Source: Peptococcaceae bacterium
Lineage (GTDB): Bacteria; Bacillota; UBA994
Length of the DNA stretch: 48,196 nt
Reading direction: 5' to 3'
Assembly (NCBI GenBank): GCA_018334055.1
Contig: JAGXSS010000003.1
Coordinates: 1-48,196, forward strand
Shown here piece after piece: positions 6,822 through 48,196 of the stretch. The position numbers and the translations under genes are program-made. A model generated the notes under the pieces. That model had not been told where the DNA came from. It searched no databases and saw nothing but the letters and a program-made list of their open reading frames with translations. Position 1 is the first letter of the stretch; each line of letters opens with the position of its first letter.

Positions 6822-7607
6822 CTAAGAGGCCGCGACCCGCAAGATTTCCTGGACAAAAGGATGTTCACGATTCAATCGACACGCCGTGGTGGGAAAATCC
6901 GCGTTGACCGGGTTCGGGACCTTGTAGGTCTCGAGGATGCCATCATTGATGGCGCGCGAGACAACTTTTTGTGGGTCAGCCAGACTCCCAAGCACACGGT
7001 TAGTCAATAGCTTTAAACCGACAAAGAGCATGCACGACCGTTCTAGGCCATCGATTTTGCGGATTAGGTAGGCGACATCCGGAGTTATTACACCGGTCTC
7101 CACTGTCCTATCTTTCTCGATGCTCAAAATGTCTTCTACGGTGCAAAAATCATCGGCATACTGCTTGAGATCTCGGCTCGTAGTGCGTTCCACGCCCACA
7201 ATGTGAACTCGCTTGCGCCGCGTGCGGAGTTTCTTTATTACTTGAATCATATCCCTATCGCCGCAGACGATGTAGTAGAGGTCAATATCCCCCCTAGTGT
7301 AGACCAACTCTAGAGCATCTAGCGAGAGTTCAATATCGGCGGCGTTCTTCCTTCTTCCCTCTTCGGAGGAGACAGAGTAGACATGTCTCGGTTCTACCGA
7401 GCGCCGTTGCAGTTCAGTTTGTAGCCCCTTAAACTCGGCGTGGTCGAAATCTGCGTAGGCCAGCATCATCACAACTTCGCCATGCCTACTAGCATGTTGG
7501 CGGAGACCCTCGACGAGTCTCCCAGTCTCTGGGGTGAAGCCGTAGGAATTCTTGGTACTCCAGTAGACATTTTCATAGTCAATAAACATCGCGACATTAA
7601 CAGTCAT
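6822..7607 (-). CDS. NYN-domain (PIN-like, DUF88) putative ribonuclease
   Basis: NYN/PIN-like fold proteins are metal-dependent RNases; this one is cytoplasmic with no signal or membrane segment in the chosen frame. The acidic active-site motifs are visible: AMFIDYENVYW at the start, AADIELSLDAL in the middle and CGDRDMIQVIKKLR before the final strand. The last ~90 residues, after VITPDVAYLIRKID, form an additional domain I cannot name (possibly winged-helix-like). ATG 7607 is chosen because AGGGGG precedes it by about eight bases and homology-like sequence begins there; the longer reading adds only a hydrophobic non-conserved stretch. Neighbouring rnhA and rtcB give an RNA-metabolism context. 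Confidence 0.8.
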   Translation of the reverse strand: MTVNVAMFIDYENVYWSTKNSYGFTPETGRLVEGLRQHASRHGEVVMMLAYADFDHAEFKGLQTELQRRSVEPRHVYSVSSEEGRRKNAADIELSLDALELVYTRGDIDLYYIVCGDRDMIQVIKKLRTRRKRVHIVGVERTTSRDLKQYADDFCTVEDILSIEKDRTVETGVITPDVAYLIRKIDGLERSCMLFVGLKLLTNRVLGSLADPQKVVSRAINDGILETYKVPNPVNADFPTTACRLNREHPFVQEILRVAAS

Positions 7608-11425: not shown

Positions 11426-11487
11426 CACCACCCGAACGATTATACCACAGCCAAGCGAGCCCCAGATCGCACGAGAAAAGAAAAGCG

Positions 11488-11519
11488 GGGGAACAGAGGG
11501 GACGGTTCTTCGTGTTCCC
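11488..11519. repeat. Solo GGGACGGTTC-type repeat hairpin
   Basis: GGGAACA (11488-11494) and TGTTCCC (11513-11519) form the arms around GGGGACGGTTCTTCG. The core matches the ends of the MITE-like copies at 14.1 and 15.3 kb. It lies 10 bases past the MFS transporter stop, so it could serve as its 3' hairpin. Confidence 0.65.
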
Positions 11520-11529
11520 AGGCTCTTTC

Positions 11530-12753
11530 TTAGGCCAAGTTGAACTTGTGCTTGAGAACCAAACATAGCCCTACGCCAACGGTTGCTAAACTCCCGGCGA
11601 TTAAGAACGCTGGGGTAAAGTTGCCGGTGGCGTCATAAATGGCAGCACCCGCCGCAGGCATGAACGCGCCAAAAGCCAAGCTGGTAAAGACCAGTCCATA
11701 ATTTACGCCGAGGTGCTTGGTGCCAAAGGCAGCGGCTGTCAGCGCGGGGAAGGTGGCCAAGACAACCGCTAGGCCCCAACCGACCAGGGCCGCAGCCATG
11801 TACAAGGTCACGGCACTGACGGCAATAACGTTAAACAGAAACAGCGTCACAGCTTGAACGGCAAAACTCACTGCCATTACCCTCACTGTGCCAAACTTGT
11901 CGCTCAAGTAGCCCGCGATGGGTCTGCCGAACCCGTTAAAGCCAGAGAAAATCGCTACGGCTGTCGCGGCTTCGGTGGCACTAAGGCCCATAACAAGCCT
12001 GCCAAAAGGCGTAATTAGGGCCGCGCAGAGCATACCGCCTGCTATCACTACGCCAAACGCGAGCCACATCACCCAGAAAATAGGCTTGAGCAAGACCTCC
12101 CTCGGCGAGACGTCAGGTGCGGACGCGACCTTTCGTTTGCGGGCCGGCGTAGCCGTACCAGTTTGCAGAACGCCCTCGGCAGGGTTCTTAATTATCCATA
12201 CGGCTAAAAGGCACATGGCAAAGCCAATAACTGCGATGAGCACCAGCGTTCCTTCGACACCATAGACCGGAATTAGGTAGCGAGCCTTAACAGGTGCTAC
12301 AAAAGTGCCTGCTAGCCCGACACCCATTACGGCGCAGGAGATAGCGAATGCCGGGCTATCAGGGAACCATTTTCGTACAGGCGGTGCTACGCAGGCGTAA
12401 ATTGTTCCCGCACCAATTCCACCCGTAAAGCCGTATGTCAAGAACAACCACCATGGGTAGGGGAAGTGCCCTACCAGCGCGGCCCCGCCAAACCCAAGCG
12501 CGATAAACACGGCCCCGAGCAGGCAGGTCTTCTTAGGGCCGATAGTGTCCTGCATGCGCCCCGCAGGAACCATAACCAACGCGAAAACCAAAAAAAAGAT
12601 CGTAAACGGCATGGCCGCCTCCGTCATAGTCCAGTCAAACCTCTCCACTAACGGAACCACCATCGGTCCCCAAGCATAGGCCACTCCCGCCAAAAAAGCC
12701 AGCAGAAACCCTGCGAAAACAATACTGTACCGCGTCCAACTTTGATTAATCAT
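11530..12753 (-). CDS. MFS transporter, OFA (oxalate/formate antiporter-like) family
   Basis: Cytoplasmic-membrane carrier of about 407 aa with twelve hydrophobic segments. The N-terminal WGPMVVPLVERFDWT, the loop GRMQDTIGPKK and the motif YGFTGGIGAGTIYACV match the OFA family of monocarboxylate/oxalate-formate exchangers. The ATG at 12753 has GGAGG six bases upstream; seven codons of upstream in-frame sequence lack a site. It stands alone between repeat-rich gaps. Substrate cannot be assigned: the key Arg/Lys residues of OxlT would need an alignment. Confidence 0.85.
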   Translation of the reverse strand: MINQSWTRYSIVFAGFLLAFLAGVAYAWGPMVVPLVERFDWTMTEAAMPFTIFFLVFALVMVPAGRMQDTIGPKKTCLLGAVFIALGFGGAALVGHFPYPWWLFLTYGFTGGIGAGTIYACVAPPVRKWFPDSPAFAISCAVMGVGLAGTFVAPVKARYLIPVYGVEGTLVLIAVIGFAMCLLAVWIIKNPAEGVLQTGTATPARKRKVASAPDVSPREVLLKPIFWVMWLAFGVVIAGGMLCAALITPFGRLVMGLSATEAATAVAIFSGFNGFGRPIAGYLSDKFGTVRVMAVSFAVQAVTLFLFNVIAVSAVTLYMAAALVGWGLAVVLATFPALTAAAFGTKHLGVNYGLVFTSLAFGAFMPAAGAAIYDATGNFTPAFLIAGSLATVGVGLCLVLKHKFNLA

Positions 12754-12959
12754 GCGTCGCCTCCAAGAATTCACGTTGATACATGAATTCGCCCCAGAGC
12801 GCCACTTTACCTGCCGACGAGAGGAGGGGAACCGGCGGAGTGTGGCGCGTCAAGAAAATGGAAAATGGGAACGGAAAGAACCGTCCCCCGTGTTCACTCC
12901 CTGCCCTGCAACTCGCTACAGACAAAAGCGGACATAAGGAAAGGGACTGTCCCTTTGTC
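12754..12959. repeat. Repeat-rich gap with solo repeat ends
   Basis: The 206-base gap between the stalk-domain gene stop and the MFS start contains GGGAACGGAAAGAACCGTCC (from 12867), matching the right end of the MITE-like copies, and the palindrome AAAGGGACTGTCCCTTT (12940-12956) only three bases beyond the stalk-domain gene stop. GCGCCAC (12798-12804) and GTGGCGC (about 12842-12848) form a wider inverted pair. No gene is seen. Confidence 0.6.
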
Positions 12960-14093
12960 CTATCTGACAGCCGTCGTCAATCTGAACTGGTCGTTTTCGA
13001 GCACCATCATCACAACGCGTCCGCGCAGTTTATCTATCTCGACATCCACGCGGATTTGTGTGGACGCGAGCACGCGAAAGAATCCTGCGTCCGGCATATC
13101 AACAAGCAACTGCCATGTTTCCGTGGACGCGCTGCTGGCGATTAACTCGGCACTCAATAGCCGCTCGCGCTGCACGCCAATAAACCGCAGCCGGAGGAAG
13201 CAACGCAGCAGGTAGGCCCGCGGTGCACTGGCCAGCTCCTCACCGACTAACTTCCCACCATGACCGATGTAATTCCCCCGTGTCGTCAGCGTTGGCTCGA
13301 TAGCCGCGTTGCTGTTCGCAAAAATAACGCCGATACTTGGCGTTCCCGGCCCCACAAAACCGGACCCAATGCGCGCCAAGACCAGCGGGGCATGACGAAA
13401 AATCAACTCGGCATCAGCCGGCCCACCCGACCGTGCTCTTATGAACACGAGTTCTTTACTGGCGTCAAACTCCTCGGTAGTATTGGCAGCCTTGTCTAGT
13501 AGCGAGCCCGCGAATTTTCGGTTGGCGAAAGAGTCCTTGTTGATAATCGCCAGCAAGTTCTCTAGCGAGCCGCGGTCGCTAGGCACAGCATTAATGCGCA
13601 AGCCCCCTTCAACACTCCAATGGTAGCTCCACCCAAATTCGTCTACCGCAAAACGCCAAGTTAGCGGGAAGTAAGTCACGCCTCTGAAGTTGAGCAGCGG
13701 CCAGGGCTCGTTCCTGTTGTTTATTCTCTTGCCGTTGACCGTGATGCCATAGGTGGGAATTGTCACTGTGACGTCCCCGCTCTGGTTTATCGTCGTCTCA
13801 TCGGCAATAAATGCGCCCGCCGACTCCGCCCTAGTGACTATGAGGCCCTCACGTTGTGACCACTGCGTGGTCAACCCCATAAAGCGGGCCAGGTTATAGG
13901 TGAGCGGAATATAGGTGATGTTTCTGTGGCGCAATAGCGGAAAACCAGCATTGACATTGTTAATGGTGATGCCATTAAGTACTACGTTCTCCTCGACAAT
14001 CGTAGCCCTCACGGTAGCAGCGCTACCCGGCGTTACAGCTTGGGACAACAAGAGCCCTACGGCCATCATCGCTACCAACAATTTCTTAATCAT
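12960..14093 (-). CDS. Secreted protein with copper-amine-oxidase-type N-domain (stalk domain)
   Basis: Exported protein of 377 aa. A signal peptide covers residues 1 to about 27 (MIKKLLVAMMAVGLLLSQ, cleavage near GSAA). Two stalk-domain repeats follow: about 35-85 (ITINNVNAGFPLLRHRNITYIPLT) shortened as INNVNAGFPLL and ITYIPLTYNLARFMGL, and about 118-165 (INNRNEPWPLLNFRGVTYFP, FPLTWRF, WSYHWSVEGGLRI). The remaining ~200 residues are not recognised. In Firmicutes such domains occur in cell-surface proteins. ATG 14093 has AGGAGG six bases upstream. It stands alone, flanked by repeats on both sides. Confidence 0.8.
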   Translation of the reverse strand: MIKKLLVAMMAVGLLLSQAVTPGSAATVRATIVEENVVLNGITINNVNAGFPLLRHRNITYIPLTYNLARFMGLTTQWSQREGLIVTRAESAGAFIADETTINQSGDVTVTIPTYGITVNGKRINNRNEPWPLLNFRGVTYFPLTWRFAVDEFGWSYHWSVEGGLRINAVPSDRGSLENLLAIINKDSFANRKFAGSLLDKAANTTEEFDASKELVFIRARSGGPADAELIFRHAPLVLARIGSGFVGPGTPSIGVIFANSNAAIEPTLTTRGNYIGHGGKLVGEELASAPRAYLLRCFLRLRFIGVQRERLLSAELIASSASTETWQLLVDMPDAGFFRVLASTQIRVDVEIDKLRGRVVMMVLENDQFRLTTAVR

Positions 14094-14124
14094 GTACATC
14101 CTCCTTTGTTTGTTGTGAACAGAT

Positions 14125-14363
14125 GGGACGGTTCCTTGCGTTCTCGCGGGCAGTAGTGTGGTATCATTCTTCTGATCGCAGCTTTTTAAGTAGATCTTTA
14201 ACGTCCCAGCGCAGTAGGGTCAGCTTTCGCTTCGCGAGACAGCGACACTTCTAAAGGTAACGCGCAAAACGGTTTACAATACAGAGTCATGCTGAGCGAG
14301 AACTAATCCGCCATGACAGAGGAACGGACCTCGGGCGAATAAAGGAACGGCAAGAACCGTCCC
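14125..14363. mobile_element. MITE-like repeat, copy A (239 bp)
   Basis: Starts GGGACGGTTCC and ends GAACCGTCCC, 10-bp perfect terminal inverted repeats. The body matches copy B at 15.3 kb over most of its length, e.g. both have CGTTCTCGCGGGCAGT, GTGGTATCATT, GCGCAGTAGGGTCAGC and AAAGGTAACGC. No open frame is convincing. It accounts for the 330-base gap between the stalk-domain gene and the protease gene. Confidence 0.75.
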
Positions 14364-14423
14364 CTGTGTCCCTGTCCCTGAGGCGCCTCCCTTCTTTCGA
14401 ATCCTAGGTCAGCCAGCTCTGCT

Positions 14424-15167
14424 TTAAGGTCGGTACTTCGCTTTAGCAAACGCGTACCAAGCGGCATAAAACTCATCTGCGCTCATTCCTAAGACCTGCT
14501 GGATGTCGCCGCCATGCAGTACTAACTCGCGTACTGCCTCATATCCGTGGTGTTCCACCAGATACTCCATTATTGTATAGCCAATCTGGTAAATCTCTGG
14601 GTTTCGCAGGGTGTCTGTGACACTCGTAAAACGCAGATGGTTCCCTGTCCCCAAGAATCTTAGGTTCTCTGGCTTAGAGAACTGCCTTGCCTCATAGAGG
14701 GCTATACTTTCCCACAGCCATGCTATATGAGGTGGAGTAAATGGCCCAATCCTCTTGGTCAGGACATGAGCTAACTCGTGGACCGCCACAGTGATAAGCG
14801 CCTGGTAGTTGTGTACTGGTCCTGGGTTCTTGGGCGAGACCATGCGAATCTCGCTGTCGCCCCATGCCACCCCTACAGCCCAATTGGGTAGGTTTGGCCT
14901 GCCGATTGCCCTGTGAAAGTCTCTAAGACGTGGGTAAAGGCGCACCGTTATGAGTCCGATCCTGTCAGGCCGGAGGTTGACGGTGATTCTGGCATAGTTG
15001 TCGATTAGGGCATCCAGCACGTCCATCGCTGCGTCTTTGTGCCCCTCGGGGTAGTAGAGTAAAAAATTTCCCGAAGAAGCGGTCAGCGTCGCACCCTGCT
15101 TGGCTGGCTCGGCACACCCGACCAGCACAAACACAAGAAGTAGCAGCAAGACAACGACTTTACGCAT
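14424..15167 (-). CDS. Lipoprotein metalloprotease, peptidase MA-like
   Basis: Exported, lipid-anchored zinc protease candidate of 247 aa. A lipoprotein signal MRKVVVLLLLLVFVLVGC places the modified Cys at C18. The gluzincin motif HELAH is at 130-134 and the third ligand is probably E153 in WLWESIALYEA, matching peptidase MA / DUF2268-type minigluzincins. Substrate unknown. ATG 15167 follows GAGGGG at five bases. The gene is flanked on each side by a copy of the same MITE-like element in the same orientation, so it sits in a repeat-bounded cassette. Confidence 0.8.
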   Translation of the reverse strand: MRKVVVLLLLLVFVLVGCAEPAKQGATLTASSGNFLLYYPEGHKDAAMDVLDALIDNYARITVNLRPDRIGLITVRLYPRLRDFHRAIGRPNLPNWAVGVAWGDSEIRMVSPKNPGPVHNYQALITVAVHELAHVLTKRIGPFTPPHIAWLWESIALYEARQFSKPENLRFLGTGNHLRFTSVTDTLRNPEIYQIGYTIMEYLVEHHGYEAVRELVLHGGDIQQVLGMSADEFYAAWYAFAKAKYRP

Positions 15168-15322
15168 CAATTCCCCTCACTTCCATGAGTTTGTTGCACC
15201 AGTCTTCCCTGCCTATTATCTCACATAGCGGTAATTTGCGGCAAAACAAAATTTCAGCCGAGTAGCCCGGGGGACCCTCACCCCCAAGCCCTCACAGAAC
15301 CGAAAGAACAGATGGAACAGAT

Positions 15323-15602
15323 GGGACGGTTCCTAGCGTTCTCGCGGGCAGTGATGTGGTATCATTTTTCTGACCGGAGCTTTTTAAGGAGATATTTACC
15401 TCCTAGCGCAGTAGGGTCAGCCTTCACTTCGTGAGACAGGGACACTACTAAAGGTAACGCACAAAACGGTTGACAAGACCCTCCTGAGCGAGGACTAATC
15501 CGCCCCGGCAAAGGAAAAGAAAGGAAAGGAAAGAACCGCGAAGGAAGTAAGTAAGGAAGGAAGGAAGGAAGGAAGGAAGGAAGGAACGGTGGGAACCGTC
15601 CC
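15323..15602. mobile_element. MITE-like repeat, copy B (280 bp)
   Basis: Same ends as copy A: GGGACGGTTCC at 15323-15333 and GAACCGTCCC at 15593-15602. The first ~190 bases align with copy A with scattered substitutions. It is longer because of a purine-rich run with a (AAGG)n stretch just inside the right end. The 535-base gap 15168-15702 holds this element, 155 bases of leader with no visible feature before it, and the helicase terminator. Confidence 0.75.
15553..15586. repeat. (AAGG)n microsatellite inside MITE copy B
   Basis: About 8.5 perfect AAGG units in a longer purine-only tract starting near 15510. Absent from copy A, so it expanded after duplication. A spurious Pro/Phe/Leu-rich reading frame crosses it on the minus strand. 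Confidence 0.95.
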
Positions 15603-15641
15603 CTGCGTCTAGCGGCGAAAACATCATTCCCAGCGAGCATG

Positions 15642-15684
15642 AAAATTCGGCATAGCCGTTGTTAAACGACGATGCCGAATTTTT
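15642..15684 (-). terminator. Terminator of the DEAD-box helicase gene
   Basis: AAAATTCGGCAT and ATGCCGAATTTT form a long stem with an inner CGTT/AACG stem; on the minus strand it ends in TTTTC. It lies about 20 bases past the helicase stop and is symmetric enough to work both ways. Confidence 0.85.
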
Positions 15685-15702
15685 GAGGATGGCCTCTTTT
15701 AG

Positions 15703-17127
15703 TTAGTCATTCCGGTAACTTGATTGGCTGCGCCCCCGTGTGTCCCGATGCGTCCTCGGTCTGGGATAATGGGGGGTGCTGTGCGCGGGACGGGGACGGC
15801 GCTGGCTCCTGAGCGGGATATCCTCGGTGATCATGACCGGGGTTTCGTCCGGCTCCTTAGTGAGCATCTTTAAGGCCGCAGCTACTAAGGCCACCGAATC
15901 GGCCCTAGCTAGGAGGGCTTCTGCCGCCGAAGTATAGTGCTCGATGGCACCTTCTTCGACTATCTGCAGGAGCTTTTCCATGCTCAAGCGGCGCTGCCCT
16001 TCCAGAGCCTCGCTAAAGCTTGGGCTGGGACGGCGTTTAATTTTACGGTTAATTCTCCGCTCAATGACTCTCAAGAGGTCGAGCTCCCGCGGGGTGACAA
16101 AGGTGGTCGCTTGACCGCTACGGCCCGCCCTACCGGTTCGTCCCACACGGTGCACATAGCTCTCGGGGTCCTGGGGAATGTCAAAGTTATAGATATGCGA
16201 GACGCCCTCGATATCTAGTCCTCTGGCGGCCACGTCGGTCGCCACTAAGATATCGATGGTCCCCTCGCGGAAACTGCGCATGACCATGTCTCGCTTGCTC
16301 TGGGTGAGGTCGCCATGGATGCCCATAGCCGCATAACCGCGCTTGATGAGCGCTTCGGATACCTCGTCCACGCGGCGCTTGGTGCGGCCGAAGACTATGG
16401 AAGAACCGGGGGCAGAGGTGTCGAGCAGGCGGCAAAGGAAATCGAACTTCTGCCCTTCCTTGGCCTCGGTGTAGAATTGCTCGATGGCTGAGACGGTGAG
16501 CTCATTGACCGGTGCCGCCACTTGCAAGGCGTCGCGCATAAAGCGTTTTGCCAAGTTGCGGATGGCCTCCGGCATGGTGGCGGAGAACAGCATGGTCTGC
16601 CGTTCCGCCGGGGTCTGCTCCAATATTTTTTCAATGTCTTCGATAAAGCCCATGTTGAGCATCTCATCGGCCTCGTCCAAGACGACGAAGTTGACATTTT
16701 GCAGACGCACGGTGCGGCGGCGCAAATGGTCTAGCAAACGGCCGGGCGTGGCCACGATGATTTGGGGATAGGTGCGCATGGCGCGTATCTGGCGGTCAAT
16801 TTCTTGCCCCCCGTACACGGGCAGACTGCGGATTCCCTTTACTTGGCCGATGCGGTTCAGCTCCTCGGCTACCTGCATAGCCAATTCCCGCGTAGGCGCA
16901 AGCACTAAGGCTTGCACATAGTGGACATTCGTTTGAATGCGCTCCACCAGAGGAATGCCAAAAGCGGCGGTCTTGCCGGTGCCGGTCTGCGCCTGGCCGA
17001 TGACATCCTTGTTGTCGAGAGCATAAGGGATCACCTGGGCTTGAATGGGAGTCATCTCCTCAAAACCCATCTCAGTGATAGCCTGCAGCACCTGCGGGCT
17101 TAGTGTTAAATTAGTGAAATTAGACAT
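15703..17127 (-). CDS. DEAD-box ATP-dependent RNA helicase (CshA-like)
   Basis: Cytoplasmic RNA helicase of 474 aa; CshA relatives act in mRNA decay, ribosome assembly and cold adaptation. Motifs in order: Q motif ([10 protein letters not shown]), [13 protein letters not shown], Ia PTRELAMQ, Ib [57 protein letters not shown]. After the core comes an acidic/leucine dimer-like region and a basic tail rich in Arg, Pro and Ser ([18 protein letters not shown]), typical for RNA binding. ATG 17127 has AGGAG eleven bases upstream. The leader is about 180 bases long, as in cold-regulated helicase genes. Confidence 0.93.
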
Positions 17128-47392: not shown

Positions 47393-47725
47393 TTGACTAA
47401 TCTGAACCTTAAACAATCGCCTAGGGATAATGGCAGGGTCTATCTCTCTATCAACTCCCTGAACCCCATCGCTCACTTCCAAGAGGTGGCCCGTAAGATG
47501 ACTGCGGAAGATATGGCCAAGAAAAGCTGACTCTGACCGTAAATATGGATGAGACGCTACCTATGAATGCCGAGGGCAGAAAAAACTTCGGCTGTGCTGC
47601 TATCCTTAAAATCTATCACGAGCTTGGACTGGACGATTTCCTTAAGAACAAGGCCAGGCATGAGCCTTTCAAGTACAACACCAATTCGATAATGATGTTG
47701 TTTACCATTTCAAGATTGCTGCGGA
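47393..47725 (+). pseudogene. Truncated IS1634-like transposase remnant
   Basis: Two adjacent frames look like one transposase N terminus: 47393-47530 (FQEVARKMTAEDMAKKS then stop) and, in the other frame, from about 47521 (EKLTLTVNMDETLP, GRKNFGCAAILKIYHELGLD, NKARHEPFKYNTNSIMMLF, ISRLLRS). The junction near an AAGAAAAG run indicates a frameshift. The second frame resembles the N-terminal part of IS1634-family DDE transposases. The sequence is cut at about 47725, where the tandem repeat array begins. The DDE catalytic part is absent. Confidence 0.6.
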
Positions 47726-48196
47726 GTGCCGGCGCTACAACCTCCCGGGTAGCGGCGTGACATGGCACGCCGACCCTCCCCCGTCGTAACCCAAGGACCG
47801 CCCCGAGGTCGCCGGCTTTTGTGCCGGCGCTACAGCCTCCCGGGTAGCGGCGTGACATGGCACGCCGACCCTCCCCCGTCGTAACCCAAGGACCGCCCCG
47901 AGGTCGCCGGCCTTTGTGCCGCCGCTACAGCCTCCCGGGTAGCGGCGTGACATGGCACGCCGACCCTCCCCCCGTCGCACCCAAAGGACCGCCCCGAGGT
48001 CGCCGGCTTTTGTGCCGGCGCTACAACCTCCCGGGTAGCGGCGTGACATGACGCCGACCCTCCCCCGTCGTAACCCAAGGACCGCCCCGAGGTCGCCGGC
48101 TTTTGTGCCGGCGCTACAGCCTCCCGGGTAGCGGCGTGACATGGCACGCCGACCCTCCCCCGTCGTAACCCAAGGACCGCCCCGAGGTCGCCGGCC
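47726..48196. repeat. 95-bp tandem repeat array, at least five copies
   Basis: Units start GTGCCGGCGCTACA at 47726, 47821, 47916, 48012 and 48105 (periods 95, 95, 96 and 93), the last running to the window end. Each contains CTCCCGGGTAGCGGCGTGAC, GGCGTG-ACATG-GCACGCC (inner hairpin), CCCTCCCCCGTCG, ACCGCCCCGAGGTC and a CGCCGGC-TTTT-GTGCCGGCG hairpin at the unit junction. Differences are few (C/T and A/G changes, small indels). GC-rich compared with neighbours. Apparent reading frames here are by-products of the repeat. It is not CRISPR: no spacers. Confidence 0.9.

Follow-up and report, generated by a model that had tools for sequence, protein, structure and literature searches.

Two MITE-like elements with RAYT-type ends on either side of a putative protease gene found in two genera of an uncultured Bacillota family

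In a contig from a Peptococcaceae bacterium, two short non-coding sequences in the same orientation lie on either side of a gene for a lipoprotein with a weak peptidase MA-like match. The arrangement raises the question of whether the two sequences and the gene form a mobile unit, or whether the gene and its flanks have separate histories that meet at this locus. The window, i.e. the whole stretch of 48,196 nt that was analysed, is contig C3 of an assembly (G000) of 2.375 Mb in 109 contigs that is 95.8% complete.

Structure and relatives of the two elements

Element A occupies positions 14125–14363 (plus strand, 239 bp) and element B, the second copy, positions 15323–15602 (plus strand, 280 bp). 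Coordinates and sizes proposed in an earlier note, which was made from the sequence alone, proved exact to the base. The sequence GGGACGGTTC starts at 14125 and at 15323 (plus strand), and GAACCGTCCC terminates at 14363 and at 15602, giving inverted ends of the form GGGACGGTTC(n5)GTTC; the terminal inverted repeats are 19 nt long and, in B, 89% complementary. Aligned in the same orientation, the two copies have 90% identity in their first 84 bp, 87% in the 85 bp that follow and 85% in the tail block, and BLAST gives 85% identity across a 208-bp alignment (E = 4.5e-62), in agreement with the shared inverted ends and matching interior that the note had described. The extra length of B is mainly a GGAA microsatellite near its tail. 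No credible ORF was found inside A or B, as the note had also claimed; on the minus strand of B a 92-aa ORF runs through the microsatellite. MITEs are defined by a size of 70–300 bp, terminal inverted repeats of 15–30 bp and lack of coding capacity (PMC3733652), and the two elements, with their 19-nt ends and no notable ORF, have these properties.

The exact end sequence GGGACGGTTCnnnnnGTTC occurs 15 times in the assembly, always in the form GGGACGGTTC(n5)GTTC. Three further end-bearing loci hold remnants of genes for RAYTs (REP-associated tyrosine transposases). Both ends and a decayed RAYT reading frame are present at C65:115-935, and the middle of this frame matches the C-terminal part of the NCBIfam family REP_Tyr_transpos (positions 104–146, E = 4e-6). 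C43:3141-3657, a locus 83% identical to C65:115-935, likewise has both ends, with one mismatch in the second, and its decayed RAYT frame contains three stops; at C1:36935 RAYT fragments lie alongside the end. Both terminal inverted repeats of A and B are present also on RAYT-encoding elements of the same genome (C65 and C43).

The similarity extends into the subterminal sequence. With the 19-nt end removed first, alignments were compared with those of 2000 shuffles. The heads of A and B (~40–60 bp) align to the heads of C65 and C43 in a way that only 0–3 of the 2000 shuffles equalled, and the tail of B (~40 bp) aligns to the C65 tail with no shuffle as good (0/2000); the tail of A alone gave no significant alignment to the C65 tail (151/2000 shuffles as good). 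The sequence in common with the RAYT-encoding elements thus amounts to ~50 bp at the head (A and B) and ~40 bp at the tail (B). No homologue of the ~115-bp centre (about 14175–14290) was identified in RAYT elements. In contig C40 of G001, a near relative (record QLUC01, MAG 'Bacillota bacterium isolate BS524'), there is an 86-bp unit with ends of the A/B type and tail sequence, without the middle.

Intact RAYT genes with inverted GGGACGGTTC ends were found in G002 (C10:69104-69995) and G007 (C33, L142:1162-2043), so the association between these ends and RAYT genes is wider than G000. No intact RAYT of the lineage matching A and B was found in the G000 assembly, 95.8% complete as it is; by protein comparison the RAYT nearest to the decayed lineage is that of G004 (C52, 60%). 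Since their ends, heads and tails are as in the decayed RAYTs, since intact RAYTs have GGGACGGTTC ends, and given the copies in G001, we regard A and B as non-autonomous RAYT derivatives; these similarities establish, at the level of sequence, a common origin with RAYT elements. The MITE-like character, mobile origin and RAYT-type mobiliser put forward in the earlier note agree with this picture. Its further suggestion of a mobiliser in common with the RAYT at 847–1605 holds at superfamily level only. That gene (plus strand, intact, 252 aa, also present in G001) belongs to another lineage, shows about 40% identity to the decayed A/B-matching RAYT over the part compared, and has GGGACGGAGG ends at 752/788 and 1618, not GGGACGGTTC ends. 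The ends of this RAYT are of the type GGGACGGAGG(A/G)(A/G)CGCGACAT-like. Elsewhere in the window, at 47672–48196, a ~95-bp unit is present in four to five copies in tandem, and 41 bp of it recurs at C65:29-69 beside the decayed RAYT.

A DNA search of 60 relatives for A and B gave G001 alone, and the exact interior pattern was found among GTDB genome contigs in QLUC01000021 of the same MAG alone, with no occurrence (0) in viral contigs. A and B are the only two long copies in G000. The further copies on which the earlier note had made its mobile reading depend do exist, as partial copies at C43, C65 and G001 C40. Contig C124 of G001 has one copy orthologous to A, adjoining the same gene; A is 86.4% identical to it (13.6% differences), as against 96.4–97.8% (2.2–3.6% differences) for the flanking genes. 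A short intergenic stretch compared between G000 and G001 shows 11% divergence. There is no sign of constraint on A, as it has diverged more from G001 than the flanking genes have. The divergence of A from B (~15%) is about equal to that of A from its G001 orthologue, which rules out a recent duplication of A into B; both elements look old and unconstrained.

Empty sites in relatives, to which the earlier note had pointed, did not emerge: no clean one was obtained for A or B. The G001 contig ends within the tail of A, and the position of B in G001, considered as a clean empty site, was rejected because of the RAYT 3′ fragment and the restriction–modification locus present there. Two single ends were also tried. 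The end in C40 of G000 is kept in G001 (94%). Around the end in C4 a region is absent from G001, but a gene duplication and a RAYT fragment complicate this locus. Two RAYT-type tails lie at the left edge of the extra segment (L037:2672-4229), which also contains a duplicate (81%) of the gene beside it and a RAYT 3′ fragment of 250 bp.

A RAYT, i.e. an HUH single-strand transposase of the IS200/IS605 superfamily, would in the past have acted in trans on the GGGACGG ends, recognising them and copying or moving A and B as single strands; with such movement no target duplication is expected. The RAYT family of A and B looks inactive, since the assembly yielded no intact RAYT that matches, and for the same reason we infer its action in trans as a historical event.

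Transferred genes and the ends beside them

The gene between A and B (14424–15170, minus strand) encodes a peptidase MA-like lipoprotein; its match to Peptidase_MA_2 is weak and below cutoff (E = 4e-4), so the label 'protease' is tentative. The block 14380–15256 is 95.3% identical in G005, a genome of a different genus, which gave the sole high-identity match among 20 relatives; the helicase gene is 70% identical between G000 and G005. Contamination of the G005 contig was rejected as the cause of the 95% identity: other genes of the contig are 92% identical to the sister species G003 and about 64–70% identical to G000, so that the contig is native. In G005 neither A nor B is present beside the protease gene, and in the G001 assembly, which has A, the protease gene was not found. 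The paired unit of A, protease and B that the earlier note had implied finds no support in these two observations, and G005 also gives a negative answer to its question of whether the protease gene always lies between the copies.

In G005 the genes follow one another as protease–grpB–MFS, the MFS gene being read in the opposite direction. The window has lost grpB; its MFS gene is turned around with respect to the protease gene and is separated from it by another gene and A, and the downstream border of the protease gene falls at the ribosome-binding region of grpB, its 3′ neighbour in G005. The gap in G003 still has sequence similar to the promoter and 5′ part of the protease gene. Clean excision of protease–grpB in G003 was considered and rejected, as the alignment suggests a protease 5′ remnant and hence a deletion; the difference between G003 and G005 looks like an internal one. 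Between the protease block and B lies a 46-bp piece (15257–15302, minus strand), probably a group II intron truncated to its 3′ end, with a sub-threshold match to Rfam RF00029 and an 82.6% match at C43, where a similar 46-bp piece flanks the decayed RAYT. The ~85-bp region 15173–15256 upstream of the protease gene recurs (83%) upstream of an unrelated gene at L169:2845-2930 (G000 C78); it is possibly a dispersed promoter repeat.

An MFS transporter gene of the lactate/oxalate–formate type (11530–12774, minus strand) is 95.6% identical in G005 and 97.3% in G001; the MFS gene of G002 is 70% identical and located elsewhere. Within the G005 genus, relatives of the gene share 84, 77 and 76% identity with the G005 copy, and this gradation suggests the G005 genus as its source. 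Protease and MFS genes are parts of a 4.1-kb insert absent from G002, where homology to the window reaches up to 11484 and is back at around 15640–15840 near the 3′ end of the helicase gene. The insert occupies a slot of variable content, flanked by a metallo-hydrolase gene and a gene for a DEAD-box helicase. In G001 the same slot holds the MFS gene, the 12960–14099 gene and A; towards the helicase gene it has a RAYT 3′ fragment and then a type I restriction–modification locus. The latter locus (L057:2962-5161 in G001 C185) adjoins the helicase gene where the window has B and the protease gene.

Six of the 15 exact ends of G000 lie within 11499–15602. The MFS gene is bracketed by an inverted pair of them (11499, plus strand, and 12887, minus strand), which the earlier note had overlooked. 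A REP-like RAYT-type end, GGGAACAgaGGGGACGGTTCttcgTGTTCCC (11485–11520, plus strand), marks the left joint of both the insertion and the MFS block, and a RAYT-type end in the inverse direction (12868–12893, minus strand) marks the right joint of the MFS block. The part of this block alignable to G003 is 11525–12864, and homology to G005 begins at 11527; on either side the block comes to within about 5–10 bp of the inverted GGGACGGTTC pair. Since G002 homology extends to 11484 and that of G003 starts at 11525, the left end lies at the boundary between old chromosome and imported gene. The edge of the protease block lies 10 bp from the outer edge of A and about 50–60 bp from B, past the 46-bp intron remnant. 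In G005, protease–grpB lies between GGGACGG repeats of that genus's own type (L047:5656-5696 and 7096-7137), which has dozens of copies in sister genomes.

Two other loci of G000 were picked solely for carrying an end. In C43, ~43 bp separate an end from a 2.1-kb peptidase gene with 91.6% identity to G003; in C87, a 605-bp block of 83% identity stops ~6 bp short of an end. Between L036 (G000 C43) and L181 (G003 C5) the order of neighbouring pieces has changed, and RAYT-type ends lie close to the breakpoints. A control comparison set 400 kb of other G000 sequence and the window against 360 kb of G003; alignments of at least 200 bp summed to about 49 kb, and none exceeded 78% identity except that of the MFS gene. 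The control covers about a fifth of each genome, so the association of ends with joints is a lead and not a statistic. The positions of RAYT ends at or near joints of transferred genes, as mapped by these alignments, are the unexpected part of the result.

Possible origins of the bracketing

If A and B were the ends of a composite transposon, a 1,478-bp unit (14125–15602) that brought in the protease gene, we would understand why the outer ends (plus at 14125, minus at 15602) are arranged as in a RAYT element, why the G005-homologous block fits between the copies and why G001 has A with no protease gene found. This origin is improbable: the G005 gene is without A and B, the ~15% difference between the copies, about that of A from its G001 orthologue, is not that of a recent pair, an intron remnant separates the protease block from B, and the downstream border at the grpB ribosome-binding region looks like a deletion joint rather than the edge of an excised unit. 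Duplication, next to the protease gene, of a gene for a structured or regulatory RNA would likewise give two copies flanking one gene and an orthologue of A in G001. We rejected it as very improbable on folding, Rfam and divergence. Fold energies of the interior are not more favourable than those of shuffled sequences for either strand (z = 0.59 and 0.43), searches of A and B against Rfam returned 0 family matches, A diverges faster than its flanks, and the partial copies at G001 C40, C43 and C65 speak against the structured RNA confined to one locus that the earlier note had named as its alternative.

Two further explanations concern the ends as a class. The GGGACGG ends may themselves have driven gene movement, with host RAYT ends bracketing passengers and RAYT action inserting and excising cassettes. 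The close joining of the MFS block to inverted ends on either side, the coincidence of its left end with the limit of G002 homology, the dispersed repeats around protease–grpB in G005, the block limits in C43 and C87, and the control, with its lack of other alignments above 78%, all favour this. On balance we hold it unlikely, as the protease 5′-like sequence kept in G003 points to internal deletion and not to clean excision, the control sampled about a fifth of each genome, GGGACGG repeats are so dense in the g2 genus (29 per 100 kb) that the G005 arrangement is likely a coincidence, and the preference of the repeats for intergenic sites biases them towards gene borders. That same preference may be sufficient: RAYT elements and group II introns would settle in intergenic sites downstream of genes, and the genes would be transferred by ordinary recombination. 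All the window's sites lie between genes, B follows the terminator-like hairpin of the DEAD-box helicase gene at a distance of ~36 bp, and REPs have been described as located mainly 3′ of coding regions (PMC3733652); it is the strong concentration of ends, six of 15 in 4.1 kb and about 2–60 bp from four block borders, that this explanation accommodates poorly. We give coincidence combined with recombination about an even chance and rank it above RAYT-driven movement. A bolder version of the latter, in which RAYT ends are splice points, transferred genes dock between the recipient's GGGACGG ends, REP transposases serve as a gene-cassette system, and the MFS segment (11499–12887) is a cassette with A and B as leftovers, is more doubtful still.

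The reading that we hold with good confidence is that A and B are internally deleted derivatives of the RAYT family, that the protease gene is a separate, horizontally shared gene, and that the bracketing reflects ends at transfer joints. The joints could have come to lie at the ends either because RAYT ends promoted them or because the repeated ends served as sites of recombination or insertion.

Relation to known systems

RAYTs are usually discussed as transposases that spread only their own short palindromes, and REPs have been studied best in proteobacteria. Here RAYT ends and MITE-like derivatives lie at joints of genes exchanged between genera in an uncultured Bacillota family. If the association holds genome-wide, it would imply a role of REP/RAYT systems in shaping gene content, for which G000, G001, G005 and G003 would be natural test pairs; if it fails, A and B are still clear cases of internally deleted RAYT elements outside proteobacteria.

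REPINs are reportedly short hairpin doublets present in high copy. They have been characterised as REP doublets mobilised by RAYTs (PMC3116915), and A and B resemble them in having two inverted REP-like ends and in being non-autonomous units related to a RAYT. The two elements do not fit REPINs in size or number: there are two long copies of 239–280 bp and 15 genomic ends, and the ends alone fold weakly. With MITEs the elements have in common their size, inverted ends, absence of genes and origin by internal deletion of a larger element; they differ from them in that the parent is a single-strand (HUH) transposase element, for which no target-site duplication is expected.

TIRtrons or TIRYTs are RAYT-like transposases with terminal inverted repeats (Di Nocera et al. 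2013, PMC3733652), a class that has been equated with subclass 2.1 (PMC6006769) and whose long terminal inverted repeats share the consensus GGGGWSAS (PMC3733652). The ends found here read GGGGACGG or TGGGACGG and agree with this consensus in at best seven of eight positions, GGGGACGG being one position off. A C-terminal helix-turn-helix, a TIRYT trait, gave a weak sub-cutoff match in the G002 RAYT and none in five other RAYTs. A and B differ further in keeping a ~200-bp interior, and the ends here also flank unrelated genes. Common to both systems are IS200-like Y1 transposase genes, inverted GGGG-type ends and further copies of these ends scattered singly or in groups, and the TIRtron/TIRYT class is the closest description of the A/B family.
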